From Acidimicrobiia bacterium (GTDB taxonomy: Bacteria > Actinomycetota > Acidimicrobiia > Spongiisociales > JAHEDJ01): DNA of 43,978 bases. Position 1 is the first letter of the stretch. The number at the start of each line of letters is the position of its first letter. Positions 2,443 through 19,325 of this stretch are shown piece by piece. Location: NCBI GenBank assembly GCA_029210695.1, contig JARGFH010000030.1, positions 1 through 43,978 of the forward strand. The letters run 5' to 3'. The notes beneath the pieces are model-generated. The model was not told the DNA's origin, made no database searches, and saw only the letters and a program-made list of their open reading frames with translations. Both the position numbers and the translations under genes were made by a program.

Positions 2443-2467
2443 GAGGTATCAATGGTAGCTTTTGCGC

Positions 2468-3382
2468 ATGGATGCCAACAGGCAGGGCGAACCGGCACCG
2501 TTTCCGATCGAACCGGACATCGAGCACGTCCACTCAGTGCTCCACCGACTCGGAATCGAAATCCGCAAACCGCCAGTCACGACTTCGGGACTCCACGAAA
2601 TCGACGTGTGGGGGAGGGAATCCGACCTCATCGAGCTTCGGAGCGGACTTGAGAGCGCCGGCCTCCTCCCATACCGCCCGCACCGCCGAGCAGACCATCG
2701 TTTCTTCCTTGGTCTTGGATCGCAGGGCTGGATCAAAGTCGATGTGAAGCTGCGCGGCAAAGAGCAGTCGCAAATAATCGGCGATCTCGCATGGCTGCTC
2801 CGCCGCCGTCGTGGAATGGTCGTCGCGTTGCTTGGGGCCGATGGAGCCGGTAAGTCGACTGCCTCTGAATGCGTCGAGAAAAGCATGCCGATCGATGTGA
2901 CGAGCAGATACCTCGGCGACGCCCGTCGATCACCCGCCGGGCGCCGGCCGCGCAAGGTGCGGGTCTCGCCAGCACGCCGGATGGCGGGGCTGGCCAAGTG
3001 GATCGTAACGACCCTCATGAAACTGTGGTCACTCGAGGTGGCGGCTCGACGGGGCACAGTTGTGGTGTGCGACCGCCATCCCATCGAAGCCGGCCACATT
3101 GGTGGTGAGTCCCGGTTCGTTCGGACTATCAAACGAGGAGTGATCCGGACGCTGGCTCCCGGGCCTGATCTCATAGTCCTTCTCGATGCTCCTGGCGAGA
3201 TCCTCTTTGCACGCAAGGGAGAGCACTCGCCTGAGCATCTCGACCGCATGTCAGAAGTCTGGCGCCGCGTCATCGAACGAAACCGCGGCATCGTGATTGG
3301 CGTGGACCGGCCTGCCGATCAGGTCTGTCATGACATCCAAGAGCAGATCTGGGTCAGGCTCGCCAAACGGCGAGCATCGTGA
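2468..3382 (+). CDS. Nucleotidyltransferase-like / thymidylate-kinase-like fusion protein
   Basis: This is a 304-residue two-domain protein. Residues 1-100 resemble the nucleotidyltransferase-like domain often fused to such kinases: HEIDVW at 43-48, then HHxFF-like and WIKVDVKL segments near 77-95. From residue 117 a thymidylate-kinase-like P-loop domain follows, with Walker A GADGAGKST at 123-131 and a DRH motif at 202-204 in VVVCDRHPIEAG. True thymidylate kinases are about 210 residues and lack the N-terminal domain, so the substrate is probably not dTMP. A related fusion occurs at 6753-8036, suggesting a shared role in glycan assembly. The ATG at 2468 was preferred over a TTG two codons upstream. 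It overlaps the next gene by 4 bp (GTGA). Confidence 0.75.
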   Translation: MDANRQGEPAPFPIEPDIEHVHSVLHRLGIEIRKPPVTTSGLHEIDVWGRESDLIELRSGLESAGLLPYRPHRRADHRFFLGLGSQGWIKVDVKLRGKEQSQIIGDLAWLLRRRRGMVVALLGADGAGKSTASECVEKSMPIDVTSRYLGDARRSPAGRRPRKVRVSPARRMAGLAKWIVTTLMKLWSLEVAARRGTVVVCDRHPIEAGHIGGESRFVRTIKRGVIRTLAPGPDLIVLLDAPGEILFARKGEHSPEHLDRMSEVWRRVIERNRGIVIGVDRPADQVCHDIQEQIWVRLAKRRAS

Positions 3383-4494
3383 ACCAATCCGATCTGCTCT
3401 ACCCACTCCTTGGCGAGACTGGTCTAGAGACCCCTATGGTCATCTGTCCCCCGGCAGACGGATGGCGCCGGCTCATCGGCCATCTCGTGGACCGGGCCGT
3501 CAACCATCGGCGTGCCGATCGCTTGCTTCCCGCAGATCGCGAGCTCGTAATCTGGCGACCTTCTCCCGGACGCTGGCCCCGCTTCCCACGGCTCAGGCAG
3601 AGGCTCCTGGCCGGGGCTATGTATGTTCAACTCCCCCACAACTCACCGATCGACTCGATACGCCGACAAGAGGAGTTCGTTCCCTCCGATCACCCGCGAG
3701 CAGGGAGCGGCGGCGGATTGCACCAGATCGGGACCCAGCGTGGCCGGGCCGTGCTGCTGCGACTCGGCTCGATTGACACGTCCGGCGACCCTGGGCGCCA
3801 TTATGAGGCATTGCAGGCGATCAGCCGACCGGTCGTGCCTGCTGCTTTGGCAACCGGCACCAGAGATATGGTCCGGTGGACACTCGAAGGGTTCGTCGAC
3901 GGGCGCCGCGTCGACAAGTTGACGGCGGCGATGACCGAACAGGTCAGCGACTTCCTCTGTGATCTGCCCCGCAGCAGCGAACCGATCACTGCGATCGAAT
4001 CAAGTGCGGGCGTGTTGGCATCGGCGACAACCGCCGTGGATATCAAGGGAGTAGCGACGATCATCGACGGGGCGACCGGAAACCTGCCCGCGGTTGTCGC
4101 ACATGGCGATCTTTGGTCCGGGAATCTTCTGTTTCACAACGGAGAGTTGACCGGGATCGTCGACTGGGACTCCTGGCTCGAGCGAGCCGTTCCGGGCACC
4201 GACCTTCTCCACTTGCGCGCCGAGGAAATTCGCCGGAGTGGAGGCATGGCCTACGGGGACCTGGTGGCCGACGGTTTTTGGGCGAGACCCGACGTTGCCG
4301 GTTTAATCGGAACCTATATGCGCCGCCTCGATATTCCATGGGATGGACGGCTGCTGCCGGTCATCGGTTGGGCATGGTGGTTGACCACTACCGCCGGAGC
4401 GCTAACCCGTACCCCGGCGCTGGCCGGCGACGGCGAGTGGATGGCGAGGAACGTGATCGATCCGGGCCGGCTGATAACCCGGCAGCTCAGGTGA
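3379..4494 (+). CDS. APH-type phosphotransferase family protein in polysaccharide locus
   Basis: This 371-residue protein has a C-terminal aminoglycoside-phosphotransferase/choline-kinase-like domain. The catalytic loop is VVAHGDLWSGNLLF (HxDxxxxN) and the metal-binding segment is GIVDWDSW. The N-lobe has GRAVLLRLGSI, where the usual ATP-binding Lys appears as Arg. The first ~110 residues are not recognised and look like a degenerate Rossmann-type region, as in the related protein at 13268-14797. Family members phosphorylate small hydroxyl compounds such as sugars, choline and antibiotics. Here the neighbours make a sugar, lipid carrier or polyol substrate more likely than an antibiotic. The GTG start overlaps the stop of the upstream kinase fusion, so the two are translationally coupled. 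Confidence 0.8.
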   Translation: MNQSDLLYPLLGETGLETPMVICPPADGWRRLIGHLVDRAVNHRRADRLLPADRELVIWRPSPGRWPRFPRLRQRLLAGAMYVQLPHNSPIDSIRRQEEFVPSDHPRAGSGGGLHQIGTQRGRAVLLRLGSIDTSGDPGRHYEALQAISRPVVPAALATGTRDMVRWTLEGFVDGRRVDKLTAAMTEQVSDFLCDLPRSSEPITAIESSAGVLASATTAVDIKGVATIIDGATGNLPAVVAHGDLWSGNLLFHNGELTGIVDWDSWLERAVPGTDLLHLRAEEIRRSGGMAYGDLVADGFWARPDVAGLIGTYMRRLDIPWDGRLLPVIGWAWWLTTTAGALTRTPALAGDGEWMARNVIDPGRLITRQLR

Positions 4495-5638: not shown

Positions 5639-6781
5639 ATGAATGACCCAGGCGACCGTCTCCGGGTGCTGGTCGTCGGCATGCGGCCACCCCGGTTGCC
5701 GATCCGGGACGGCTACGTGCTGCACCTCTACCACCTGCTCAAACAACTGCACCGGCACCACGATGTCCGGTTTCTGGCCCCGGATGATGAGAACGGGCTG
5801 TTCAAAGACATCGACGGGCTGAACTGTTCCCTCGTTGCCGGCGGACGGCGCAAGCTCGAAAGGGAGACGTTGGATCAGATCGGACGGTTCAAACCCCAGG
5901 TCGTGCACGTCGTTGGTGCCCCGCTGGCGGGAATACTCCGACGACTACCCCGGCCGATGTCGTCCATACTCGGCGCTCTCGATGCTCCTCACCTCAATGT
6001 CGATGCCGTGGAGGCAAGAACCGCCGCAGGTTTGATTAGCAAGCGGGTGAAGCGAGCTCGAGCGATCTGGGCTATTCGGCACTCATATCGACAGGCGGAT
6101 CGGGTCGTCGTTGTGAGCGCCGAAGATCGGGAGGCCCTCGAACACCAGAATGCTCGTCTGTCGGTCTCGGTAATCCCGAATGGTGTTGACGTGGACGATT
6201 TCGGATCACGACGCGATGTGGCCCGACAACGCGATCATCTCCTGTTCACCGGAGCGCTGGACTACCCGCCGAATGTGTCTGCCGCGCTGTTCCTCGTCAA
6301 TGAAGTCCTACCCAGAATCCGAGCCGTGCAACCGTCGGCCCGGGTGTCCTTGGTTGGTCGCGATCCTTCTGACGAGATCCGGAGCCTCGACGGCCGACCA
6401 GGCGTTGATGTCGTCGGACCGGTCGATGTCATGGTTGATGCGCTCGCCGTCGGAAGCGTGTACGTCTGTCCGATGATCAGCGGTACAGGGATCAAGAACA
6501 AACTGCTGGAAGCCCTCGCAAACGGTCTGCCCTGTGTTGCGAGTGAGCTGGCGGTGCGGGGAACGAGCCTCGCTGACGGCATCGAGGTGCTCATAGCCAA
6601 CACGGCAGATGAGGTAGCCGAAGCCACACTTCGATTGCTCTCCGATGCCGGGCTACGGGAGCGAATCGGCAGCGCAGGTCAGGACTACGTGACGCGGAAC
6701 CACGCCTGGTCTTCGATCGGCGAGCTGTATTCAGATCTGTATCGAGCGGTCCTCACGCCCGGTGGCGGCGAACCCAGGTAA
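5639..6781 (+). CDS. Glycosyltransferase family 4 protein
   Basis: This 380-residue GT-B enzyme begins LRVLVVGMRPPRLPIRDGYVLHLYHLLKQL, followed by VVSAEDREAL and SVIPNGVDVDDF at the domain junction. The C-lobe carries LLFTGALDYPPNVSAALFLVNEVLP and GTGIKNKLLEALANGLPCVAS, resembling the sugar-transferase subgroup found in exopolysaccharide systems. It probably adds one residue to the lipid-linked repeat unit. The ATG at 5639 sits only 18 bp from the divergent GT2 start, so any promoter must lie inside that gene or the transcript is nearly leaderless. The 3' end overlaps the convergent kinase fusion by 29 bp. Confidence 0.9.
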   Translation: MNDPGDRLRVLVVGMRPPRLPIRDGYVLHLYHLLKQLHRHHDVRFLAPDDENGLFKDIDGLNCSLVAGGRRKLERETLDQIGRFKPQVVHVVGAPLAGILRRLPRPMSSILGALDAPHLNVDAVEARTAAGLISKRVKRARAIWAIRHSYRQADRVVVVSAEDREALEHQNARLSVSVIPNGVDVDDFGSRRDVARQRDHLLFTGALDYPPNVSAALFLVNEVLPRIRAVQPSARVSLVGRDPSDEIRSLDGRPGVDVVGPVDVMVDALAVGSVYVCPMISGTGIKNKLLEALANGLPCVASELAVRGTSLADGIEVLIANTADEVAEATLRLLSDAGLRERIGSAGQDYVTRNHAWSSIGELYSDLYRAVLTPGGGEPR

Positions 6782-8036
6782 ACAGACGAGCCCGCCGACT
6801 CATTGGGTACGCCATCAAGAATTCGTTCAGGTCTCGCAACACGACGTCGTCCGTGAGGTGGCCGCCGAGCATCGCGTCGTGACGTTGAAGATTCGGCACC
6901 CGGTGAAGATGTTGTCGATAGGCAGCATGCTGCTGGGCGACAAGCGTGGCACCCACCAGATCGTCCGGCTTCCGGGCAGCCGCTTCCGCCGCATCCACAT
7001 CGAGGAACACGGCGAAATCGGCGTTCGGAATGAACAAGCGGATGAGGAAACGCTGAAATCCGGAGTGCACCCCCTGGTAGAGCACATCAACCGTCCCAAG
7101 CGCATCAATGAGGTGACGATCGTAGATAACTAGGCCGCCGGCCTTCCTGGTCTGATTACGGACGTCGGCGAGATACGCCATGGTCACGAGCGTCAGCCAG
7201 ACCCAGCCCGTGAGTCCCCGACGAGACGAGATGGTCTCCGACGCCTGACCTTCTGCCAACCGCTCCAATCCAATCTCTTCCTCTTTGCGGAGTCGGCGTG
7301 CCCAGACGGCCAACCGGTCGAGCAGCTTCAATCGCATTCCGGGCCGGGTCCATACGACGGTCGTCGGAATGTCACACCGTTTGAGGCTCTCACTGAGCGC
7401 CTCCACGAGCGTTGATTTTCCCGATCCATCAATACCGCTGATCGCCACCCGGATGCTCGGTCGACGCAATTTCCGTCGAGGTGCCGGCTCATCCGGATCG
7501 GTGGGCGATGGAGACCGCCAAGCGATCAGCCGGTTCCTGCCGAGTTCGCGCTCCAGATCGGAGACACCCCCCAACAAACCTGGATCGATTGAGTCGGGAT
7601 CGACCCCACCGTCCATCAGGTGCAGGACTTCCAGGTACGACCGAACGTCGGGTTTGCCCCGCCGCCGCACACGGTCCGTGACCTTGTCAAGGTCCGTTGG
7701 TGCCCGCCCTGACTTGAATTCGGCTTTGGCGAGAATTGTGCCGCGGTCGACGATGGCGTAACTCTCACCATCGACATAGCCGAGGTGGCTAAGGATGCCG
7801 CTGAGTGGAATCCAATCCGCTTGTCGCGCCAGCGACTCAGCCGCGCTCAGATCAGGCACATAGATGTCAATGTCTGACGACCATCCGGGCCCGAGTGGAG
7901 AGACGCTGAACTCTGCGCCGGTTGCCTCGAGGAGCGCGACCGCTCGATCGAAGGCCTCGACCATGCGCACCTGATCCGCCGGTGAAGGGAACGTACCGGC
8001 GGGAAAGCCACGTTCGTCATTGCTTGGCTCCGTCAT
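6753..8036 (-). CDS. Nucleotidyltransferase / thymidylate-kinase-like fusion protein
   Basis: In this 427-residue protein, residues ~25-150 form a nucleotidyltransferase-like domain with GWSSDIDIYV at 51-60, a DxD-type metal motif, and AKAEFKSG at 103-110. Residues ~195-427 form a thymidylate-kinase-like domain with Walker A GIDGSGKST at 201-209 and a later VIYDRHLIDA segment. It is the better preserved of the two fusions in the locus; the one at 2468 keeps only one Asp in the corresponding motif. The substrate is unknown, and phosphorylation or nucleotidylation of a glycan precursor is inferred from context. The ATG at 8036 overlaps the TGA of the ATP-grasp gene (ATGA), so the two are translationally coupled. 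Confidence 0.8.
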   Translation of the reverse strand: MTEPSNDERGFPAGTFPSPADQVRMVEAFDRAVALLEATGAEFSVSPLGPGWSSDIDIYVPDLSAAESLARQADWIPLSGILSHLGYVDGESYAIVDRGTILAKAEFKSGRAPTDLDKVTDRVRRRGKPDVRSYLEVLHLMDGGVDPDSIDPGLLGGVSDLERELGRNRLIAWRSPSPTDPDEPAPRRKLRRPSIRVAISGIDGSGKSTLVEALSESLKRCDIPTTVVWTRPGMRLKLLDRLAVWARRLRKEEEIGLERLAEGQASETISSRRGLTGWVWLTLVTMAYLADVRNQTRKAGGLVIYDRHLIDALGTVDVLYQGVHSGFQRFLIRLFIPNADFAVFLDVDAAEAAARKPDDLVGATLVAQQHAAYRQHLHRVPNLQRHDAMLGGHLTDDVVLRDLNEFLMAYPMSRRARLFTWVRRHRA

Positions 8037-9142
8037 TCCCCTACTCCAGTCTGGCGCCGCAATCGAATGAAGGCAGGAAGCGGGTCGCACACCGACACAA
8101 TGCTGTGACAGACTCCGCGGTGAGGCATAGCTTCTCTCCAAGCCGAGAAGATGGTGCGGTCGCCGGCCCGGATTTCCGACAGAAGGCTGCGAAGATCACC
8201 GTCGATCCAGCGATAGCGTACGCCCACCGCGGCCGTTTGCGTGGCAACATCCTCGCCCTCCGTCAACCGGCACACCAGGTCGGGAAGGTTCAATCCCGCC
8301 GCCAGGGCGAGAGCCATCGATCCGTACGGGCGGAGATTCAGGTCGATCAACGCTTCTCCAACGAACTGAGCCTGGAATATTCCATCGAAGTCCCCGAGTA
8401 GCGCCTCCAGCAACCCGAACCGGTTTGGATCGATTGCTTCGGTTATCGCGAAGGAGGCCGTGCCGGCCGCAGACGGGAACGTCCGGATGTAGCGTTGTTG
8501 CAGCCGGGCGACGATCCGTCCATTCCAGGCAACTCCGGCAAGGGCCCGGGTTACTCCGTTCAGATACGGCTGGGCAACGCCGACCCCGACCGGTACCGCC
8601 ATGAGGTCGATGGCATGGTCGACGCGAACGGAGACCGGCCCTCCTGGAGACTTGGTCCGCGGCTTCACAATCAGCGGGAAGCCGAGCTCACGGCCGACGA
8701 GGTCCAACTCGGCGGCCGAAGCGAAGGTCCTCGTGGGAGGGGTGGTAAGACCAGCCGCGATGATCCCGGCGGTCAGGGTGGACTTGTCCATGAGGCGGGC
8801 AGTCGCGGGAACGAGCGAGACGAGCGCGATATCAGAGGTGGGGAATACGGTGGTTGCCGCCCGATCGGTTGCCAGGTTTCGAACTGCTTCAGCAAAGCCG
8901 GGGTCGGACGGGGGAACAACCGAGACCGTCTCAGATGTGAATCGGGAGCCGGCAGCCAGCGAACCGGGACCGCTGACCGCCACAATGGCGGTACGCCCTG
9001 CCCTGGCCAAGGCGCGCACCGTGGCAAGGGCCGAGCGATCATGGGTCCACCCCTCCGAGGTCACTATTGCGGTCGACGAGGTCCCTGGCACAGCGGGATC
9101 GTAGTGTCTTGTATCGACATGGCATCTCTCCGTTCGGCGCAA
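8033..9142 (-). CDS. ATP-grasp domain protein
   Basis: This is an ATP-grasp enzyme of about 369 residues. The N-terminal part, TAIVTSEGWTHDRSALATVRALARAG, is the pre-ATP-grasp fold. FPLIVKPRTKSPGGP carries the ATP-binding Lys, and ALIDLNLRPYGSMALAL carries the N-x-R-P metal-binding motif. ATP-grasp enzymes join a carboxylate, through an acyl-phosphate, to an amine or similar nucleophile. In a glycan cluster such a protein could attach an amino acid or other carboxylate to a sugar, but the substrate cannot be read here. The start is uncertain: TTG at 9142 is the longest, and GTG at 9091 keeps the whole fold. It is followed by the kinase fusion with a 4-bp overlap. Confidence 0.75.
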   Translation of the reverse strand: MRRTERCHVDTRHYDPAVPGTSSTAIVTSEGWTHDRSALATVRALARAGRTAIVAVSGPGSLAAGSRFTSETVSVVPPSDPGFAEAVRNLATDRAATTVFPTSDIALVSLVPATARLMDKSTLTAGIIAAGLTTPPTRTFASAAELDLVGRELGFPLIVKPRTKSPGGPVSVRVDHAIDLMAVPVGVGVAQPYLNGVTRALAGVAWNGRIVARLQQRYIRTFPSAAGTASFAITEAIDPNRFGLLEALLGDFDGIFQAQFVGEALIDLNLRPYGSMALALAAGLNLPDLVCRLTEGEDVATQTAAVGVRYRWIDGDLRSLLSEIRAGDRTIFSAWREAMPHRGVCHSIVSVCDPLPAFIRLRRQTGVGE

Positions 9143-9157
9143 TAGATTGGCGAGATC

Positions 9158-10114
9158 GTGAAGAAGGTCCTCTTCGTCGCCCTCACCGCGCTCGTGGTGA
9201 TCATCTTGATTTCGGTGACGGCCGACTCCGAACGTGTGCTGCTATTGCCGGACGCGTTCAGCGCCGATTCGATCTGGAACACGCCGCTGCCGGAAGACGT
9301 TCCGCTACATCCGCGCTCCGATGAGATGATCTCGTTCCTGGCGTCGGATAACGCGCTACAGGGGTGTATCACCCTGGCCGGAGCCGAGAACAATTGGGGC
9401 ATGCCGATCTATGTCGCTGATGCGGATTCACCGACATATAGCGTGACGTCCACCAAGTATCCGGTTCCGCCGGAGTTCGCATCGTTGCGCATCCCGCGCC
9501 GCGCCTTGCCGGCGGACACATCGGACGCCGAGATGGTGATATACGACCTCGATCGAGGGGTAGTGGCACAGCTTTCGAAAGCTCGGTACGACGGTGATCG
9601 CGACGCGTGGACTGTGAGCGGCGGGAGCATCGCCTACCTGGAGTCGAACGGTCTGGACGGCTCGTTGCCGGCTTCAGATGAACGCCGCAATCGGGGAACC
9701 TTTCGGGGTTACAACGGCGCCGTGGCGGCCGTTCATTACGACGACGTCGCGGATGGGGTGTTGGACAACGTTGTCAAGATCGGGGTTCATAGATCGCATG
9801 TGGATGCGGTCTCACCAATGGTGGGTAGCGACGGCGACCTCGTCGCCGACGGCGTACCCCGCCAGGGCATGCGGCTCCGCATACGTCCGGAGTTGGACCT
9901 CACCACCCTGGGACTGGCACCACAGGCCTTGATCATTGCCACGGGCCTCCAGGAGTACGGGGCGATTATCGGCGACAGCACGGGCGGGGCCATCGTTCTC
10001 ATGCTGGAAGACACGGACCGGAGTGGCTCGGGAGGTCGATGGGACCTCGACGAGTTTGGTCTCTGTGCCATCACCGCAGCCGACCTCCAGATCGTTGACA
10101 CCGGGTCTGGATGA
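9158..10114 (+). CDS. Secreted protein of unknown function (DSxWNTP family), without SLH repeats
   Basis: This 318-residue protein has a signal peptide or membrane anchor (MKKVLFVALTALVVIILISVTA) and a single unrecognised extracellular domain. Conserved landmarks shared with the paralogue at 10230-11705 are DAFSADSIWNTPL, GCITLAGAENNWGMPIYVAD, VSGGSIAYLESNGLDGSLP, VHYDDVADGVLDNVVKIGV and GLQEYGAIIGDSTGGAIVLMLED. Aromatic residues and Asp/Asn/Gly-rich loops suggest a carbohydrate-active or sugar-binding fold, but I do not recognise the family and assign no activity. The start is GTG at 9158, with TAGATT at 9143-9148 as a possible -10 for a near-leaderless transcript. Confidence 0.8.
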   Translation: MKKVLFVALTALVVIILISVTADSERVLLLPDAFSADSIWNTPLPEDVPLHPRSDEMISFLASDNALQGCITLAGAENNWGMPIYVADADSPTYSVTSTKYPVPPEFASLRIPRRALPADTSDAEMVIYDLDRGVVAQLSKARYDGDRDAWTVSGGSIAYLESNGLDGSLPASDERRNRGTFRGYNGAVAAVHYDDVADGVLDNVVKIGVHRSHVDAVSPMVGSDGDLVADGVPRQGMRLRIRPELDLTTLGLAPQALIIATGLQEYGAIIGDSTGGAIVLMLEDTDRSGSGGRWDLDEFGLCAITAADLQIVDTGSG

Positions 10115-10229
10115 CCCGCCGTCGGGTACACCCACACCGGTTTGGGGTAGTGGCCGCCAATCGACGATACTCTGCCGACACTGTGCGCTGGGGATTGCGA
10201 CGACGGAACTCCACAAGGAGACTCAACAC

Positions 10230-11705
10230 ATGACTCGTCAATTGACTCGCCTAGCTCTCGCCCTCGCTATCGGGCTAATGGTGATCTCCGCAGATGTTGC
10301 TTCTGCTGCCGAACCTGCGCCCGACGCATTCTCAGCCGACTCGTTCTGGAACACGCCGGTGGCCCCCGACGCAACGGTCCATCCCAATTCCGACAACATC
10401 ATCGACTTCCTCGTGGCCGACAACGACCTCGACGGGTGCATCACCCTCGGAGGCGCGGCCGACAGCAGCAACTGGGGCATGCCGACCTTCGTGGCCGATT
10501 CGTCCGACCCCGAAACACCCGTGTCAACGGTCAAATGGGATGTACCACCGGAGTTCGCGCATCTGCGGATTCCAATCGGAGCAACAGCTGCGGACAACTC
10601 CGACGGGGAAATGGTCGTCTACGACCTGGTGGCCGGCGTGGTCGCTCAGCTCTCGAAGGCCGTGTATTCCTCCGGAACCTGGACGGTGAGTGGAGGCAGT
10701 GTTGCCTACCTCGACTCAAACGGCCTCGACGGATCACTCCCCCAATCGGATGAGCCGAAAAACGGCGGGACGTTCCGCGGATATCCGGGATCAACAGCCA
10801 TGGTGCACTACGACGACGTGGCCGGCGGTCGCCTCGACAACGTCGTCAAGATCGGGGTCAACACCGCCAACGCGAGATTCGTGTTTCCGATGATCGGTAG
10901 CGATGGCGACACATCGAACCCGGACGCTCCACTGCAGGGAATGCACATTCGGATCCGTCCAGATGTGGATCTCGCCGGCCTGGGCCTCACAGGCCAGGCG
11001 TTGACCATCGCCAGGGGTCTTCAGGAATTCGGGATGATCGTCGCCGACAGCACAGGAGGAGCCGTAGTACTCGCGCTGGAAGATACGGTGGCCGGCGGAC
11101 GGGGGAACCTCTGGAAACTCAACCGCGAGAGTCTGTGTGCCATCACCGGCGCCCACCTCGAGGTGCTTGCCGATTCCGGCACACCAACCTCTCCAAGTGG
11201 TTTCACGGATGTCGCCGGTCACTTCTTCGAACCCGACATCACCTGGCTCGTAGAGGCGGGCATCACCAAGGGATGCGGGTCCGGTCGTTTCTGCCCGGAT
11301 GCGCCTGTCTCACGAGGTCAGATGGCTGCCTTCCTATCGCGAGCGCTCAACCTCGAGACGGCGCCGTCTGCGGGATTCACCGATACCGTCGGACACTTCT
11401 TCGAGCGTGACATTGATCGGTTGTTCGCGGCGAACGTGACCCGCGGCTGTGCCACAGGGATCTTCTGCCCCGACAGACTGATGACCCGGGGCGAGATGGC
11501 CGCGTTTCTGGTCCGGGGTTTTGGACTGCCGGCCGCCCCGCCGTATCCCTTCACCGATACCGTCGGAAGCTACTTCTCGCACGATATCGACCGGTTGGCG
11601 GCCTCGGGTATCACACGTGGGTGCACCGCATCGACCTTCTGTCCGAACGACCATGTGACCCGCGGTCAAATGGCAGCATTCCTGAGAAGGGCAAAAGAAG
11701 GCTGA
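10230..11705 (+). CDS. Secreted DSxWNTP-domain protein with three C-terminal SLH-like repeats
   Basis: This 491-residue protein has a signal peptide (residues 1 to about 27, ending ASA), then the same unknown domain as the upstream paralogue (DAFSADSFWNTPV to AITGAHLEVL). Three S-layer-homology-like repeats follow, each with the pattern FTDxxGxxFxxDIxxLxxxxITxGC...FCPxxxxTRGxMAAFLxR. SLH repeats normally bind cell-wall secondary polymers, so this is probably a wall-bound version of the upstream protein. The ATG at 10230 follows AAGGAG at 10215-10220. The unusual point is the fixed Cys pair in each repeat, probably a disulfide. Tandem duplication with gain or loss of the anchor is the simplest history. 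Confidence 0.85.
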   Translation: MTRQLTRLALALAIGLMVISADVASAAEPAPDAFSADSFWNTPVAPDATVHPNSDNIIDFLVADNDLDGCITLGGAADSSNWGMPTFVADSSDPETPVSTVKWDVPPEFAHLRIPIGATAADNSDGEMVVYDLVAGVVAQLSKAVYSSGTWTVSGGSVAYLDSNGLDGSLPQSDEPKNGGTFRGYPGSTAMVHYDDVAGGRLDNVVKIGVNTANARFVFPMIGSDGDTSNPDAPLQGMHIRIRPDVDLAGLGLTGQALTIARGLQEFGMIVADSTGGAVVLALEDTVAGGRGNLWKLNRESLCAITGAHLEVLADSGTPTSPSGFTDVAGHFFEPDITWLVEAGITKGCGSGRFCPDAPVSRGQMAAFLSRALNLETAPSAGFTDTVGHFFERDIDRLFAANVTRGCATGIFCPDRLMTRGEMAAFLVRGFGLPAAPPYPFTDTVGSYFSHDIDRLAASGITRGCTASTFCPNDHVTRGQMAAFLRRAKEG

Positions 11706-11720
11706 TCCGGCAGTGTCATT

Positions 11721-13271
11721 TTGAGCAACAAACAGATTGGAGACGCCAAAACCTCCGTCTCGGAAACAGATGATTCGGAGTCACACAGCCAGGTGCGCGG
11801 CTCGAGTTTGTTGTTATCAGGTCAGCTGGTCGCAACCGCCATCAGCTACGCCACGCAGATCCTCATTATTCGCTACTTGAGCAAGAGCGACTACGGCGCC
11901 TTCGCGTACGCCCTCTCAATCGTGGCCGTTCTGCAAGCGGCGGTCCAGTTTGGCTTCGACCGCGGCCTGTCGAGATACCTGCCGATCTACGACGAGAAGT
12001 CCGACACCGGTTCCATCATCGGAGCCATCACGTTCGTCGGCGGTATGGCCGCTGGGTTTGGCTCGGTGGCCGCGGTGGTTTTCTGGACTACCCGTTCGCT
12101 CATCGAAGGTGCCCTCATTGAGGACCCGCTGGCAGTGTCGGTTTTGGCGATACTGGTGGTGCTTGCGCCGGTGGATGCGCTCGACAACTTGCTCATCACC
12201 ATCCTGGCCGCGTTCCGTCGGACCGGTGCGATCTTCCTTCGACGCTACGTCGTTGCCCCGTTGCTCAAATTCGCGACTGTCGTGCTGCTGATAGGCACGG
12301 GCAGCAACGTCAAGTTCCTCGCAGTCGGGTACGCGACCGCCGGCTTCATCGGACTGGTGGTCTTCGCTTCAGTGCTGGGTCGTTATCTCTCTTTACGTCG
12401 TTCGAAAGATCCGATGAGCCCCATTCGATTTCCGATCCGGGAGTTGGCGACGTTCTCGTTGCCCCTGTTGACCACTGATCTCGTATTCATGGTGTTCAAC
12501 GCCTCGGACTCGATAATGCTGGAGTGGTTCGGGTCGACGGTCGACGTTGCGACCCTACGGGCTGTCCAACCAACCGCCCGCCTGAATCAACTCGTGTTGT
12601 CTGCGTTCGGTGTGCTCTACATCCCCTACATAGCCAGGCTCTTTGCGCGAGGAGAACACGACGAAGTTGGCAGACGGTACTGGCAAACCGTCAACTGGGT
12701 GGTGATGCTATCCCTACCCGTCTTGAGCCTTTGCCTGTTGTTTCCCAACGAGTTGACCGGCCGACTCCTGGGCGGTGACTATGCCGATTCGGCAGCGGTG
12801 CTGGGCGTGCTCGCCGTCGGGTACTTCATCCATGCGATGTTCGGGTTCAACGGAATGACTCTCAACGTGTACAGGAAGATCGGATACCTGGTCGGCGTGA
12901 ACCTTGCGGCGGTATCGGTCAACGTAGCTCTCAATCTTGCGCTCATCCCATCGATGGGACCTCTGGGAGCTGCGATCGGGACCACTGGGTCCTTCCTCTT
13001 TCACAATATCGCCAAACAGTACGGACTGATTCGAAGAGTGGGGCTCTCACGGGCTAGTTCCTCGACCTGGCGGCTATACGCATTGGTGATTGGCGTCGCA
13101 ACAACTTCGGCGGTCGTCGGCTACGGAAGCGGGATTCCATTCTGGGGTCGAGTCGGCCTTTGGGCTGCTTTCGGCGCAATTGCCATTCTTGTAGGACGTA
13201 AGATCCTTCGAATCGATGAAGCCTTCCCCGGTCTGGCCAGGATTCCGTTGATCCGCCGCATCTTCCGATGA
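11721..13271 (+). CDS. Polysaccharide flippase (Wzx-like, MOP superfamily)
   Basis: This 516-residue integral membrane protein has about 12-14 predicted helices. The first follows a 25-residue polar N-terminus: SSLLLSGQLVATAISYATQILIIRYLSKSDYGAFAYALSIV is the typical opening of Wzx/PST transporters. These proteins move lipid-linked oligosaccharide repeat units to the outer membrane face. Its place next to an O-antigen ligase/polymerase and a Wzz-like protein supports a Wzx/Wzy-type export route. The start is TTG at 11721 with no clear ribosome-binding site; a GTG at 11793 would remove only the polar tail. Its stop overlaps the next gene's start (ATGA). Confidence 0.88.
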   Translation: MSNKQIGDAKTSVSETDDSESHSQVRGSSLLLSGQLVATAISYATQILIIRYLSKSDYGAFAYALSIVAVLQAAVQFGFDRGLSRYLPIYDEKSDTGSIIGAITFVGGMAAGFGSVAAVVFWTTRSLIEGALIEDPLAVSVLAILVVLAPVDALDNLLITILAAFRRTGAIFLRRYVVAPLLKFATVVLLIGTGSNVKFLAVGYATAGFIGLVVFASVLGRYLSLRRSKDPMSPIRFPIRELATFSLPLLTTDLVFMVFNASDSIMLEWFGSTVDVATLRAVQPTARLNQLVLSAFGVLYIPYIARLFARGEHDEVGRRYWQTVNWVVMLSLPVLSLCLLFPNELTGRLLGGDYADSAAVLGVLAVGYFIHAMFGFNGMTLNVYRKIGYLVGVNLAAVSVNVALNLALIPSMGPLGAAIGTTGSFLFHNIAKQYGLIRRVGLSRASSSTWRLYALVIGVATTSAVVGYGSGIPFWGRVGLWAAFGAIAILVGRKILRIDEAFPGLARIPLIRRIFR

Positions 13272-14797
13272 TGGTGCTCGAGGAGACTCGACGGCTAGTC
13301 ATGGCCCCGTCGTCCAACCTTCCCCAAACCGAAAACGGCTCATGGTTGTTTCTGTTGGCCGGCCTCGACCATGTGGTCTGCCTGGGCCTCCCGCCTCGAG
13401 CTGTAATCAGCCTGCTGCGCGCCACGGCCAAACGGGTGACGATCCTCCCGGAGGGATCCGAAGTCACCGAAGGCGATCATGCTGCAGCCTTCGTGGTAGC
13501 CAGCGACGATGAGGCCTGGGTGGATGAGGCTTCACGCGGCTACAAGTCCTCGATCGAGGCAGGTGCCAGCGTCGTGCAGCTCGCCGGCAGCGCCCGGGCG
13601 TTAGAGGGCGGCCGATGGATCGTGCTCGAAATCACATCCCCTCCTGATTCGGTTTGGGTGCGGCGCCTCAAACGACTCGTCCAACTGGCCCAATCCCGTG
13701 TCGCTGCCATCGCCCGGGGTCAAATCGCTCCTTCCGCTCGTCGCCACCCTTCAGATGTTGCCTTCATACGTGTCCCATCAGAAACCCGAACGGAACCCGA
13801 CCCGGCAGCCCTCTCAATAGGAAGTCGGTCCCTCGAGCTTCCATCGTTCGTTCGGGAAATAGCTGCTGCTGCGGGCTACGACTTTGCAGATCGTGAGTGG
13901 TCGTTTGGGCCGCCCCGTGGTTTCTCCTCGCAGAAGGTGGTATTCGTGATCGAGGGCACCGACGCAACCCCGGAGATCGTGGTCAAACTCACTCAGGAAT
14001 CCCGCTTCAATCGACGATTGCAAGCCGAAGCCGGTTCCCTGCATCGCTGGGCATCGGAAACTGTCTCTTTCGCCACGCCTCGCGTGGTTTTCGAGGGCCT
14101 GCACGATGATCGTCTCGTTCTCGGGCAGACCGCTGTCTCTGGCCGGCCCTTCCGAGCGGTCGCAGAGCCCGATCCGGCCGGTCGCATCGCCGGTGCCGGA
14201 TACCGGGCGATCATCGATCTCTCGACGAATTCGGTCCAGCCGACCGCGGCCGGTGAAAGCGCGACGGCTCTGTCGTCACTCACCGCCGACTTCGGGAAAG
14301 CCTTCCGGCCTCCGGATTCGACGGCTGCCGCGATCAGCGCGACCGCCGACCGGCTCGGAGCGCTCGAGCTTCCGGCTGTGTTCATGCACGGCGATCTCGG
14401 CGTGTGGAACTTGCTGGTCGACCCGGATGGCAGGATCGGCATTCTGGATTGGGAAAACGGCGACCCTCGCGGGATGCCGTTGTGGGATCTATTCGTGTAT
14501 TCCCGCACTCTGGGCGTATTCCTGGCCGATGCGCGGGGCGTTAGATACTCGCCAGCGGTATTCGCCAGACAGTTCCTCAAAGATTCGGCGCTGCGCCGGT
14601 CCATGTTCGAGTGGATTCGAGAGTATCGTCGATATGTGGAAATTCCGGTACGTGCGGTCGACGACCTCTTCATCATGTGCTTGGTGCAGCAGGCAGTTCG
14701 GGAAGCGGCGAGTTTGGAAGATCCGGCATGGTTGGCATCTCACGGCACGCGATACCTGGCCTCTGCCCTGGCCCGCCCACTTGGATTCGAAGGCTAG
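13268..14797 (+). CDS. APH-type kinase with an unrecognised N-terminal domain
   Basis: In this 509-residue protein the C-terminal half is an APH/choline-kinase-like fold. PEIVVKLTQESRF carries the N-lobe Lys, FMHGDLGVWNLLV is the catalytic loop and IGILDWENGDPRG is the metal-binding loop. The N-terminal ~150 residues, with DHVVCLGLPPRAVISLL and KRVTILPE, look like a degenerate Rossmann/methyltransferase-type fold. It resembles the APH protein at 3379-4494 in architecture. Coupled translation with the flippase (4-bp overlap) suggests its substrate is part of the exported glycan or its carrier. The specific substrate is unknown. Confidence 0.8.
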   Translation: MMVLEETRRLVMAPSSNLPQTENGSWLFLLAGLDHVVCLGLPPRAVISLLRATAKRVTILPEGSEVTEGDHAAAFVVASDDEAWVDEASRGYKSSIEAGASVVQLAGSARALEGGRWIVLEITSPPDSVWVRRLKRLVQLAQSRVAAIARGQIAPSARRHPSDVAFIRVPSETRTEPDPAALSIGSRSLELPSFVREIAAAAGYDFADREWSFGPPRGFSSQKVVFVIEGTDATPEIVVKLTQESRFNRRLQAEAGSLHRWASETVSFATPRVVFEGLHDDRLVLGQTAVSGRPFRAVAEPDPAGRIAGAGYRAIIDLSTNSVQPTAAGESATALSSLTADFGKAFRPPDSTAAAISATADRLGALELPAVFMHGDLGVWNLLVDPDGRIGILDWENGDPRGMPLWDLFVYSRTLGVFLADARGVRYSPAVFARQFLKDSALRRSMFEWIREYRRYVEIPVRAVDDLFIMCLVQQAVREAASLEDPAWLASHGTRYLASALARPLGFEG

Positions 14798-14836: not shown

Positions 14837-16132
14837 ATGAGCCCGATTGTCGTTCTGACCCTGCTAACTGCATCGTTGCCGGCGATCGTCGCAGTCGCCG
14901 TTTGGATGTGGCGGCGACCGATTCGCTTCCTCGCCGCCTATTTTGCGGTCTTGCCGGTTGGTTCGGCAGTTTCGTTGCCGCTGGGTTTGCCCTCGTCGTT
15001 CTCCACGGTGTCGTCGTTACTCGGTCTTCTTGTCATAGCTGTGTACTTTCGGAGATGGAAACGCGAGCGACCGCCACTGCGGATTCCGTCGCTTAGCGTG
15101 CCGGTATGGGCGATCTACCTGGCCCTCGCCGCCGCCAGCACTGCATGGTCCATCAGGAGTAGCGCCACAATCAACGGATTGCTGGTCCTGATCAGCCTGA
15201 TCGGCCTCTTCTTCGTGGTTGTCGTGACACCGATCACGAGCCAGGAGTTGGGTTACCTCAGAGCCTGGATCGCCACCGGGGCAGCCCTAACTGGTCTCTA
15301 TGGGATTGTCCTCGCCGCGACCGGAAATCTGCAGAAGACCGGCGCCGGCCTGGCCCGTTTCATGGTTACCGGCGCAGGAGGTGGCGACCGTGGTGACCCG
15401 AACATAACCGCCGCAGCATTCCTGGTACCGATTTCCATCGCGTTGTGGGAAGGCCTCAATCCGGATCGGTCTCGAAAAAGCCGTGGGTGGTACCTCACGG
15501 CGGCTGCACTGGCCGGATCAGCGGTGCTGTTGACGGCGTCGAGAGGCGGGCTCCTCTCGCTGGGGGTCGTCTCGGTTGTGACCATCCTCTCGAGAAAGAG
15601 AGGAATATTGTCGCTCGTACTGCTCGGCCTGATGGTGCTTCCGACGATGCTCCTGATCCCCTCCACCTTCCAGGAACGGGCGGACAATACGGGGACGAGC
15701 GGTCGGACCGAGATCTGGCGTCTTGCCATCGACAGCTGCCCGCAATATTGCCCGACCGGCAGCGGATACGGAACGTTTGCCGATGTGCACGAGGCGGCGA
15801 TCCTCGTATCAGAAGATGCCACGGGAACGAAACTACGGTATCAGGCCCACTCGATCTGGCTCGAAGCTTTGATCGAGCTCGGAGTCCTCGGGTTTGCCCT
15901 CCTGATCGTGGCATTCGCCATTACGATGAATGACCTGATCCATGTGAACATTGCCGAGCGCGGAGGCGCGCTGGCAGGTCTAATCGGCTTACTGGTGGCG
16001 AATACGTTTCTCTCAACCCTGACCTTCAAGTACTTCTGGCTGGGTCTGATCTACGCTCTCCTGGTGGTCGGCTCCGCGGCCGACAAGACTTCAATCAGCC
16101 CTCTTCACCCAGCAGGTCACTCGGCGCGGTGA
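14837..16132 (+). CDS. O-antigen ligase/polymerase-like membrane protein (Wzy/WaaL)
   Basis: This 431-residue protein has about 10-12 membrane helices and the Wzy_C/O-antigen ligase signature region. LLTASRGGLLSLGVVSV is a conserved helix, the large periplasmic-type loop follows it (about residues 270-340), and YQAHSIWLEALIELGVLGFALLIV holds the conserved His. Such proteins polymerise repeat units or transfer finished glycan to an acceptor outside the membrane. It follows the APH gene by 39 bp on the same strand as the flippase, so the three form a short operon. The stop overlaps the convergent Wzz-like gene by 38 bp. Polymerase and ligase cannot be told apart from sequence alone. Confidence 0.85.
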   Translation: MSPIVVLTLLTASLPAIVAVAVWMWRRPIRFLAAYFAVLPVGSAVSLPLGLPSSFSTVSSLLGLLVIAVYFRRWKRERPPLRIPSLSVPVWAIYLALAAASTAWSIRSSATINGLLVLISLIGLFFVVVVTPITSQELGYLRAWIATGAALTGLYGIVLAATGNLQKTGAGLARFMVTGAGGGDRGDPNITAAAFLVPISIALWEGLNPDRSRKSRGWYLTAAALAGSAVLLTASRGGLLSLGVVSVVTILSRKRGILSLVLLGLMVLPTMLLIPSTFQERADNTGTSGRTEIWRLAIDSCPQYCPTGSGYGTFADVHEAAILVSEDATGTKLRYQAHSIWLEALIELGVLGFALLIVAFAITMNDLIHVNIAERGGALAGLIGLLVANTFLSTLTFKYFWLGLIYALLVVGSAADKTSISPLHPAGHSAR

Positions 16133-17231
16133 GATCAACGGCTTGTTCGATCCAGTCGACCACCACCTGGCGACGGACGTCAATTGCGCCTGCCAGCCAT
16201 CTGGGATCGGCGTTGGCCAGATCCTTCAGAGTTGTAATTCCTGCAGTCGCGAGCCTGGCCCCGAAAATCGGACCGATGCCGTTGATGGACTCGACGACCT
16301 CTGAGGCCGCCTCATGGGATGAGATCAGCGAACGGACCGGCGCTGATCGCTGCATCTCGTCCATGAACACCACGAGAGGCTGATCTCCGACCAGATCTGA
16401 CTGCTCGTCTTGATCCCGACCGTCGGTAGGCGCGACGGCAAGCCGCCTGCCCTGCCCGTCGCCCCCGGCGGTGCGCCGGTACGCACTCCCATCTTCATCC
16501 CATGTCTCCCATTGGTCACCGGTGGCGCCAACCGAATGCGCGGAGTCTGCATGAGTTCTGACGACTGAGACGGGCCGTGCGGATGGATCGGGCTGTAAAC
16601 CCTTGACGTAGAAGGTGATCAACGTCGCCATTCCGATGGCTGACGCCAAACCGGCCACCACGCTCAATACGATGATGAGGAGGCGGGGACCCGCAAGCGG
16701 AGTTGTTGGTACCGTCGCCTCGATCTGAAGGGCAAACTCACCGAATCCGGGGCCGACCCGGTTCAGTTCCTCCGCCAGGGCTTGGCCCGCTGCATTGGCA
16801 TAGAGTGCGGCAAGCTCAGGATCGGGATGCAACGCTTCGATCCCGACAACCCACGTATTCTCGAGAGGTTCGGCTGTAACAATGTCGGGAATGAGGTCGG
16901 CCGGGAGGATGCCGGTTCCTGCCCGTTCCGCCGCTAGGGCGGCGACGGTGCCGCCGTTGAAGATGGCGACGGCTGTTCGCGGGAATGATTCGACACGGAT
17001 TTCCAGCTGGGACGCCACCACCAACGCTTCGGCGTGATACAACGGCTCGTCCGGTTCGACGATCCAGGCTACAAAGTTCACGGCGGAGATCACGATGAGG
17101 GCGAGCAGCAAGAACTGCAACCAACCGCGCCGGAGGGTGGTAACAATGTCGAGAGGTCCCACCTGAACCGATGGGCGTTGACCGGTTTGGGCGTTGTCGG
17201 CTGCGCTTCGTGAGAGGCTTGGATCAGTCAT
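16095..17231 (-). CDS. Wzz-like chain-length protein with C-terminal helix-hairpin-helix domain
   Basis: In this 378-residue protein, residues 25-60 (DIVTTLRRGWLQFLLLALIV) hold the first helix and residues 183-209 the second. The external region between them (61-182) is as in Wzz/Wza-kinase co-polymerases that set glycan chain length. Instead of a tyrosine kinase, the cytoplasmic tail has a charged linker (~215-305) and a helix-hairpin-helix segment, INGIGPIFGARLATAGITTLKDLA (316-339), plus a second helical pair to ~364. HhH domains usually bind DNA or proteins, so the fusion is unexpected. The ATG at 17231 is used. TACTAT on the minus strand (17248-17243) could be a -10 for a nearly leaderless transcript. 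Confidence 0.8.
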   Translation of the reverse strand: MTDPSLSRSAADNAQTGQRPSVQVGPLDIVTTLRRGWLQFLLLALIVISAVNFVAWIVEPDEPLYHAEALVVASQLEIRVESFPRTAVAIFNGGTVAALAAERAGTGILPADLIPDIVTAEPLENTWVVGIEALHPDPELAALYANAAGQALAEELNRVGPGFGEFALQIEATVPTTPLAGPRLLIIVLSVVAGLASAIGMATLITFYVKGLQPDPSARPVSVVRTHADSAHSVGATGDQWETWDEDGSAYRRTAGGDGQGRRLAVAPTDGRDQDEQSDLVGDQPLVVFMDEMQRSAPVRSLISSHEAASEVVESINGIGPIFGARLATAGITTLKDLANADPRWLAGAIDVRRQVVVDWIEQAVDLTAPSDLLGEEG

Positions 17232-17334: not shown

Positions 17335-17362
17335 CTGACGAAACCCGGTGCGCTGGCATAAT
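17335..17362 (+). promoter_or_regulatory. Putative promoter of the SLH-repeat surface protein gene
   Basis: The -35-like CTGACG (17335-17340) and -10-like CATAAT (17357-17362) are separated by 16 bases. They would start transcription near 17369, about 50 bases before the ATG at 17418. The match is moderate and the call is based on spacing alone. Confidence 0.4.
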
Positions 17363-17417
17363 GGGGATTCGCGTTGGCAGACCAACCAACGTTCTCGCAG
17401 ATATTAGGGGCCTAAGA

Positions 17418-19325
17418 ATGCAGATGAAGAAGCGAGGTTTCCTCGCAATTGTACTTTCAATGGTCATCGTCGGCGCCACGATGGTGGTTGCCTTGGGTGA
17501 GACCGCTTCGGCTCAAACCACCAACACATTCACCGACGACGACGGCAACACCCACGAAGCTAACATAGAAGCGATTGCCGCGGCGGGAATCACCAAAGGC
17601 TGCAACCCGGCCGGCACGTTGTACTGTCCGTCTGACTTCGTGACCCGGGCTCAGATGGCTTCGTTCCTGGCCCGTGCCTTCAGCCTCCCTGCCGCTTCTC
17701 TCGACTATTTCCTCGACGACACCGGCAACACCCACGAGGACAACATCAACCGCATCGCCGCCGCAGGGATCACGCTCGGCTATCCCGACGGCACCTTTCG
17801 ACCGACGGGGTTCGTGACCAGGGCTCAGATGGGTTCGTTTATCGCCAGGGCGATGAAGCTGACCCCCATCGTTGCGAATCGTTTCAGCGATGTGTCGGGA
17901 ACTCATGCAGCGAACATCAACGCAATTGCGGAAGCCGGCGTGACGTTGGGATGCAATCCCGCCGGGACCCTGTATTGCCCCAACGATAACGTTCGCCGTG
18001 ATCAAATGGCCTCGTTCCTCGCTCGCGCCACGCCGACTACGAGCACCACCACAAGTACCAGCACCACAACAACTTCGAGCACCACAACGACGACAACGGT
18101 AGTGACCAATCCGAACGTTGCCCAGGGTTCGTTCGGGATTTATGTCGATGGAACCGAACCAAGTGCTGCCCTGTTTTCGGGACCCGGCACCGAGGACACC
18201 CCGGCAGTGGTGGATTTGAATGAAACCTTCTCGATTCGGGTAGCGCTGGCCAACACGGGCGCCGCGGCTACCTCAGTTCGGCCCAAGCTGCAGTTCCGCT
18301 CCATTGGCCCGTCGGTGCCGCCGGGAACCAGTTGGTCGCCGTGGGCCGACGTCACGGGATCGTCGAACCTCGTCCGAGCCAGCCTTGGAACTGTCGTCGA
18401 CGGTGCGCCAACCACGGAACGGCTCGACGGCTCGCTGACGTTCGTGCCAGGGCGGATCGACGAAGTCGACGGCGTCATCAACTCTGCTGTCGCGCTGGCT
18501 CAGAACCAGGAAACCGAGTTCCTGTTCTCGGTAAGAGTTACGATCCCGAGCGTTGCCAAAGACCAGTTCCAGTTCCGATTGATCGACGCCGCTTTGGGCA
18601 GCGTATACGACGGATACGACCAACGGCCGCCGGCCGTCAACTTCCCCTTCGCGTTTGCCAACGGGTTTGAGGCCGGCACCCCCGGAGCTGTCATCACAGC
18701 AGCCGGCTCCGCCAACCCGGATCCGTGGACACAGGTAGAGCCGGGAACGGTGATCACATACGACAACACTCAGAAGATCCAGGCCACGCAGTCGGCCAGA
18801 TTCGAGCGCTCGTATCTCGACCTTGATTCGTACCTACGGCTCAACGACTTCAATCAGGCCCAGCACCTGTACGGGCGGGTGTACTTCCGCTATACGGGTC
18901 TTGCGCGGGACATCGACAGCCAACCGGTGAATGTGCGAATCGTCGACGTGGTCGGTGGATATGACGACGGGGACCAGAACTCGCATTCGATCACGGTCAC
19001 TCTGGCCGGCCAGGTCAGGATAAAGGCGGGCGGCCTCGCCGGACCGGGTGATGTCGAACTGGTGCTGCCAAGTACAACCCTCGACTTCGACACGTGGTAC
19101 CGCATCGAGTGGCACGCCACGACTGAGTCGGCGCCTCTTGCCAAAGACGGCACGGTCGAGGTAGTGATCTACAACGCGGCTGGTACGGAGTTGGAGAGGG
19201 GTTCCATCTCTGCCGCTCCAACCCTCACCGAATTCGAAGACATCGACATCGGCCCCCGCAGGAGCACCATCACCGCCTGGATCGATGCAGTGGCACTCTC
19301 CAACCAGGGCTGGCTCGGACCGTAA
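17418..19325 (+). CDS. Secreted SLH-repeat surface protein with Thr/Ser linker and C-terminal lectin-like module
   Basis: This 635-residue protein has a signal peptide (MKKRGFLAIVLSMVIVGATMVVALGETASAQ). Three SLH-like repeats follow (residues ~35-195), with GCNPAGTLYCPSDFVTRAQMASFLARA in repeats one and three; repeat two lacks the Cys pair and reads GYPDGTFRP. A Thr/Ser-rich linker (~residues 204-229) leads to a beta-rich middle region (FGIYVDGTEPSAAL...). The C-terminal region (~415-635) resembles a concanavalin/laminin-G-like sugar-binding sandwich. It is probably a wall-attached adhesin or S-layer-associated protein. ATGs at 17418 and 17424 are both possible. AGGGG about 10 bases upstream favours the first. 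Confidence 0.85.
   Translation: MQMKKRGFLAIVLSMVIVGATMVVALGETASAQTTNTFTDDDGNTHEANIEAIAAAGITKGCNPAGTLYCPSDFVTRAQMASFLARAFSLPAASLDYFLDDTGNTHEDNINRIAAAGITLGYPDGTFRPTGFVTRAQMGSFIARAMKLTPIVANRFSDVSGTHAANINAIAEAGVTLGCNPAGTLYCPNDNVRRDQMASFLARATPTTSTTTSTSTTTTSSTTTTTTVVTNPNVAQGSFGIYVDGTEPSAALFSGPGTEDTPAVVDLNETFSIRVALANTGAAATSVRPKLQFRSIGPSVPPGTSWSPWADVTGSSNLVRASLGTVVDGAPTTERLDGSLTFVPGRIDEVDGVINSAVALAQNQETEFLFSVRVTIPSVAKDQFQFRLIDAALGSVYDGYDQRPPAVNFPFAFANGFEAGTPGAVITAAGSANPDPWTQVEPGTVITYDNTQKIQATQSARFERSYLDLDSYLRLNDFNQAQHLYGRVYFRYTGLARDIDSQPVNVRIVDVVGGYDDGDQNSHSITVTLAGQVRIKAGGLAGPGDVELVLPSTTLDFDTWYRIEWHATTESAPLAKDGTVEVVIYNAAGTELERGSISAAPTLTEFEDIDIGPRRSTITAWIDAVALSNQGWLGP

Follow-up and report, generated by a model that had tools for sequence, protein, structure and literature searches.

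The window analysed here is a 43,978-nucleotide stretch of DNA from an Acidimicrobiia bacterium (assembly GCA_029210695.1, contig JARGFH010000030.1, positions 1 to 43,978). Its minus-strand gene at 16095-17231 encodes a 378-residue protein (P0001) that, as judged largely from structure prediction, is probably a minimal Wzz-type polysaccharide co-polymerase (PCP) with a C-terminal helix-hairpin-helix (HhH) tail. This fusion is a new combination of two known parts, and no report of a Wzz or co-polymerase protein fused to a helix-hairpin-helix domain was found in the open-access library that we searched. Four orthologues, one of them truncated at a contig end, carry both parts. Arguing by analogy, we lean slightly towards the view that the tail would dock a protein, in a PCP that has no kinase domain.

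The open reading frame begins with ATG and has an in-frame TAA two codons 5′ of it. On the plus strand of 16095-17231, stops interrupt the frame set by the coordinates, and there is no open reading frame of at least 120 residues. From its N-terminus, the protein is predicted to comprise a first membrane helix (about residues 37-58, 17058-17123), an extracytoplasmic PCP domain (about residues 59-182, 16686-17057), a second membrane helix (about residues 183-212, 16596-16685), a presumably cytoplasmic linker (residues 213-311, 16299-16595) and the HhH domain (residues 312-364, 16140-16298), all on the minus strand. The two membrane helices correspond to helices 17-38 and 163-192 of an AlphaFold2 model in which residue i is residue i+20 of the protein. 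We infer from the topology of PCPs that the tail is cytoplasmic. The initial annotation had described a Wzz-like membrane part followed by a linker and an HhH segment at residues 316-364, in place of a kinase. Its placement of the HhH segment was essentially correct and the linker is supported. In addition, the only Pfam family above its cut-off in the protein is HHH_5, in agreement with the proposed lack of a kinase domain. The C-terminal tyrosine kinase domain, Walker motifs and tyrosine-rich tail that are the hallmark of PCP-2a proteins are likewise absent. The term "Wzz-like" holds for the predicted fold but not at the level of Pfam.

The Pfam Wzz family (PF02706) does not match the window protein at E up to 10; at E 0.01 it matches none of 8 genomes, compared with 10 of 14 named genomes used as a control. 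The match to GNVR, the PCP-kinase domain of Pfam, is weak (E 0.22). Since the direct Pfam test for Wzz failed, the assignment to the PCPs rests on sequence profiles and on the predicted fold. Profile A2, which represents the window family alone (five close relatives), also finds PCPs in other parts of the phylum, namely L042 at E 9e-21 (taking the best match per genome) and L052 at E 6.8e-7. Both L046 and L052, which this profile reaches, carry Pfam Wzz above cut-off, and L052 also has an ATPase domain. A wider profile, A5, to which distant PCP rows were added (excluding L038, L040, L041, L052 and L057, and also L039 and L059), matches the solved Wzc among PDB sequences at E 2.4e-9. The AlphaFold2 model of the PCP part, built from 21 sequences, has a mean pLDDT of 87.6 and a pTM of 0.72, and shows in turn a membrane helix, an alpha/beta domain about 120 residues long and another membrane helix. 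Its structural matches are Wzc (Z 14.1 over 177 residues, root-mean-square deviation 3.2), KpsE (Z 11.7) and WzzE (Z 9.0), with unrelated rows starting at Z of about 8.4. A long helical arm is typical of Wzz and Wzc. In the model, the longest helix of the outer domain is 21 residues and there is no such arm.

Of the candidate PCP relatives, L039 and L059 seem to be something other than PCPs, and neither went into A5. The C-termini of four distant relatives in the phylum (L042, L043, L044 and L046) read as a kinase domain without Walker A, and L042 and L043 have no Pfam match at E up to 1.

The tail is recognized as HhH by several methods. The HHH_5 match spans residues 312-364 (E 1.9e-6) and scores 28.7 bits, against a cut-off of 27. 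In a whole-genome scan the same match scores 26.8 bits alone and 27.1 bits with its neighbours, and thus lies narrowly above the cut-off. NCBIfam gives only below-cut-off matches over this segment, including models for ribosomal L21, RadA, polymerase IV and NuoE. An AlphaFold2 model of the tail, built from 37 sequences (mean pLDDT 85.5), has an HhH fold with five helices, as expected for an (HhH)2 domain. VIA-align places it closest to HhH regions in polymerase theta, RadA and NusA AR2 (Z of about 10-11). Foldseek returns nothing at E of 0.001 or below, the best match being Rad51/RadA (E 9.7e-3, probability 1.00). Against PDB sequences, the tail profile matches a complex I subunit (E 8.5e-8), Rad51 (E 1.3e-6), protein-O of the Dinoroseobacter reaction centre (E 1.6e-6) and NusA (E about 7e-6), with many DNA polymerases lower.

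The pairing of the two parts was then followed across genomes. A search with the full protein matched 44 of 59 genomes, mostly through the HhH domain alone. Apart from the window, both parts occur in one other genus of the order, where four of five sampled genomes have them (G008, G015, G021 and G028). The G028 copy is the one truncated by a contig end, and the fifth genome of that genus, G048, is 68% complete. The N-terminal profile matches 9 of 395 genomes of the class, 5 of them strongly, these being the window's own genome and the same four; in a phylum-wide sample it matches 19 of 396 genomes, own included. None of the other four sampled genomes of the window's own genus (one of which is 56% complete) has the N-terminal PCP part. 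Scanning genome contigs with the single protein sequence gave no relative, and with an alignment as the query it gave three records. The longest of these, L033, has the ATP-grasp, DAFS-type, Wzx, APH, Wzy, PCP-HhH and S-layer-homology (SLH) genes all present, and here too the PCP-HhH gene converges on Wzy, overlapping it by 26 bp, and diverges from an SLH gene; the two shorter records keep whichever part of the cluster their contigs cover. Since both parts and the neighbourhood, as far as it can be checked, are kept in another genus, the pairing of PCP and HhH is more than chance. Thus, the pair looked for in other Acidimicrobiia does exist there, complete with its tail.

In the loci covered beyond these, the two parts were found apart, although further fusions may exist elsewhere. 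Sixteen further places with long HhH-bearing frames, picked among the matches listed, have no match to the PCP profile at E up to 1. In the 23 loci with weaker PCP-profile matches (L038-L060), no frame matches HhH at E up to 10. The loci of this fusion search reach about 1.5 kb on each side and cover 19 of the 22 non-window matches to the N-terminal profile in the phylum-wide sample.

Conservation is uneven along the protein. Between the window protein and its orthologues, identity is 71-76% in the outer domain (residues 63-180), 33-44% in the membrane-helix regions, 13-22% with gaps in the linker (residues 211-304) and 47-53% in the HhH domain. The four orthologues have two HhH copies per chain and the window protein has one. 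The ratio of nonsynonymous to synonymous substitution rates (dN/dS) was taken only from pairs with unsaturated dS. Among the four orthologues the first HhH copy has 0.02-0.08 (3 of 6 pairs), the second 0.02-0.05 (4 of 6) and the outer domain 0.04-0.08 (2 of 6). The ratio is higher in the linker, at 0.17-0.34 (4 of 6), and in the segment that separates the HhH copies, at 0.22-0.50 (3 of 6). The HhH copies of the orthologues are under purifying selection, and their tethers drift. Comparisons with the window protein itself, which are rough (dS of at least 1.5), give 0.12 for the outer domain (1 of 4 pairs unsaturated) and 0.60-1.03 for the linker (3 of 4). These values bear on the idea that a mobile domain joined the C-terminus by chance and has no function. 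The promiscuity of the HhH module speaks for such an accretion, but the tail is present in all five members found and the orthologue HhH copies evolve more slowly than their linkers in the unsaturated pairs, so that we regard this explanation as extremely improbable.

The module is not confined to PCPs. In a class-wide search in which at most 15 candidates were scored per genome, the order is represented by 138 genomes, of which 101 match the HhH domain at E up to 1e-14 (counted by hand). A small protein with one membrane helix (identified by eye) followed by an HhH domain was found in 28 loci and, going by this count, is widespread, occurring in most of the order's sampled genomes. The window's own genome has a copy (L061:4785-5177), which is found with the window protein as sole query at 42% identity over the HhH domain (E 1.4e-7). 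It shares the HhH domain with the PCP-HhH protein, but has a single membrane helix, no PCP domain and a different neighbourhood. In other genomes, five 10-kb loci around this gene contain a GGT-like gene in five of five and rlmN in four of five; four shorter loci contain rlmN in two of four and the GGT-like gene in none, both gene names being read from the sequences. The module also appears in the 16 long frames mentioned above, whose products were likewise named by reading the sequences and not from databases. Ten of them, from several genomes of the class (L085-L094, with L085 cut at a contig end), mostly have a membrane helix, a long, mainly coiled-coil stretch and one or two HhH copies. 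L084:516-1898 reads as an ATP synthase gamma subunit with a C-terminal HhH module, L081 as a phasin-like protein with HhH, and L079, L080, L082 and L083 as the solo protein within an extended reading frame. The HhH module, as read from these sequences, is therefore promiscuous and stands at the C-terminus of other membrane proteins of the class.

In a tree of 44 HhH domains (65 columns), all nine PCP-borne domains form one clade (97/81), with the window domain beside the first copy of the orthologues (84/73); the deeper forks are weak. The clade lies among domains of the small membrane-HhH protein, which may have supplied the PCP tail, though the tree does not settle this.

Taken together with the Wzx/Wzy context of the gene, these features suggest a mechanism. 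The protein would act as the PCP of a Wzx/Wzy cluster, its outer domain and membrane helices assembling around or beside Wzy and setting chain length, by analogy with other PCPs. The long, loose linker would end in the HhH domain, forming a protein-docking knob under the membrane that would hold a cytoplasmic or membrane partner. Binding of this partner, rather than phosphorylation, would then do the organising job of the PCP-2 tyrosine kinase or pseudokinase. Docking is favoured because a near relative of the tail, NusA AR2, is protein-binding (its partners are SuhB and the C-terminal domain of RNA polymerase alpha; PMC6614801). It is also favoured by the presence of the same module on other membrane proteins, by the location of a conserved domain on a free linker and by the fact that no eps_fam kinase match reaches its cut-off. 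The docking role, the replacement of a kinase and the identity of any partner are what we infer. Of the two suggestions in the initial annotation, namely that the tail tethers the glycan machine to another cytoplasmic protein or to DNA, the former appears likelier.

Several observations weigh against docking. We found no partner for the tail, so docking remains an analogy, and the HhH part of protein-O is invisible in the map, so no structure that we examined shows the ligand of such a tail. In the window protein, selection on the HhH domain can be read from a single unsaturated pair (dN/dS 0.16 for the first HhH, 1 of 4 pairs; rough, with dS of at least 1.5). Most proteins that the tail matches in fold or sequence serve in DNA repair or are polymerases (RadA, Rad51, polymerase theta and DNA polymerases), and a canonical GIG is kept in the first hairpin of the window protein and in copy 2 of the orthologues. 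Finally, below-cut-off eps_fam-like matches occur in all 8 genomes and may include a separately encoded kinase or pseudokinase that acts as partner.

The matches to repair proteins and polymerases, together with the retained GIG, speak for a DNA tether, in which the HhH domain would bind the chromosome or RNA and couple the glycan machine to the nucleoid; HHH_5 is present in many nucleic-acid proteins. DNA-binding (HhH)2 domains, however, usually have G-h-G in both HhH units, whereas the second hairpin of the window domain is without it and copy 1 of all four orthologues reads GVDA, the motif of the first hairpin being lost. The tail has a net charge of -4, and all 37 domains of alignment A3 range from -1 to -10, compared with 0 to +5 for six other HhH regions in five proteins of the same genome (two partial matches have 0 and -3). 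A ComEA-like domain of the same genome is as acidic as the tail (-4), so charge alone is not decisive and was dropped as a disproof of DNA binding. The hairpin motifs weaken the DNA tether, which we consider unlikely.

Regarding the kinase, eps_fam (TIGR01007) is above cut-off in none of the 8 genomes, own included, while 5 of 14 named genomes pass as a control. The weak matches in 8 of 8 genomes speak for another reading, in which a separate tyrosine kinase or pseudokinase from another locus would still drive the PCP, the HhH tail being an addition and not a replacement. No match passes the curated cut-off, however, the six weak matches in the window's own genome (G000) all lie off the window contig, and weak eps_fam scores are also expected for ParA/MinD-like ATPases. 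There is precedent for separate partners, as PCP-2b and EcpK systems use them (PMC12220298 and PMC12004946). On balance, a separate kinase seems very unlikely to us.

The doubled HhH domain of the four orthologues would be of use if the tails of neighbouring subunits packed against each other under the membrane and stabilised the PCP ring with no outside partner. Each second copy would add contacts, the long linker permits packing of tail on tail, and PCP-2 proteins form octamers (PMC12220298, which also describes the split into PCP-2a and PCP-2b). Such self-assembly is a fair rival to docking, though rather unlikely in our view. No homotypic contact was seen for this HhH subtype, though no search was aimed at such contacts, and the widespread solo membrane protein has only one HhH copy.

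The docking reading can be placed beside known systems. Wzc (PCP-2a) and CapA/CpsC (PCP-2b) likewise have an alpha/beta outer domain flanked by a pair of membrane helices, and a Wzx/Wzy context, and Wzc is the best match of the window's PCP part in both sequence and structure. Compared with PCP-2 proteins, the window protein has no kinase domain and no Pfam Wzz match, has a short outer domain of about 120 residues and bears an HhH tail instead. The usual view is that cycles of tyrosine phosphorylation drive PCP-2 proteins. In 2025 a subfamily independent of phosphorylation (EcpK/EpsV of Myxococcus) was proposed, in which a pseudokinase scaffold would bind the cytoplasmic end of a PCP without a kinase domain (PMC12004946). 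EpsV resembles the window protein in these respects, but its partner EcpK is a separate protein with a pseudokinase fold, whereas the window PCP itself bears the HhH domain. KpsE (PCP-3) is similar in fold, but it was solved with the KpsMT transporter, whereas the neighbours of the window PCP are Wzx and Wzy. On the side of the tail, NusA AR2 has the same fold (Z 10.2, dual HhH of about 65 residues, 22% identity), although NusA is a soluble transcription factor and not a membrane-borne protein. Protein-O is similar in having two membrane helices, a long flexible linker and a C-terminal domain of short helices that matches the tail profile, but this reaction-centre subunit, with its NuoE-type C-terminus, has a different N-terminal part and belongs to a different machine. 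The role of the HhH tail in protein-O and its relatives is called obscure in PMC12079452, and the PCP-HhH protein adds a case to the question of what such tails do on membrane machines. With no eps_fam match above cut-off in its genome, such an HhH-tailed PCP would represent a further way of running the cytoplasmic side.

A broader form of docking is that one HhH module on various envelope machines plugs into a common hub, with tyrosine phosphorylation replaced in the present case. The carriers would be this PCP, the coiled-coil membrane proteins, the ATP-synthase-gamma-like protein, the complex I subunit and protein-O, and the hub might be the small membrane-HhH protein of the order, reached through HhH-HhH contact. 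We hold such a shared docking code to be distinctly unlikely.

The PCP-HhH gene lies within a glycan cluster whose other genes described here are on the plus strand. The gene for a Wzy-type polymerase/ligase (Wzy_C, 14837-16132; PF04932, E 1.1e-17), syntenic in three related records, stands tail to tail with the PCP-HhH gene and overlaps it by 38 bp. Upstream of it are a Wzx-type flippase gene (11721-13271; PF01943, E 1.5e-20), syntenic in two related records with the third too short, and a gene for an APH-like phosphotransferase (13268-14797; PF01636, E 1.4e-14), syntenic in three. An SLH protein gene (17361-19325; Pfam SLH, E 1.7e-17) is divergent from the PCP gene and syntenic in two related records, one of them cut at a contig end. 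A further SLH-containing neighbour (10104-11705; Pfam SLH, E 1.2e-23) is also syntenic in two. A scan of the region for promoters and terminators gave nothing above chance.

Two other features of the cluster were observed. The products of 9158-10114 and 10104-11705 are paralogues with DAFSADS.WN near the N-terminus, one of them having SLH repeats; the 9158-10114 product lacks any Pfam match at E up to 0.01, and both DAFS-type paralogues are kept in the other genus (L033:13732-16268). Furthermore, the cluster contains two thymidylate-kinase-like genes, two APH-like genes and one ATP-grasp-like gene (2462-4494, 6753-9142 and 13268-14797). Pfam was run on three of these five: the APH-like gene at 13268-14797 alone passes the cut-off, and the matches of the ATP-grasp-like gene and of the second thymidylate-kinase-like one are weak and fall short of theirs. 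The remaining two were named by reading their sequences.

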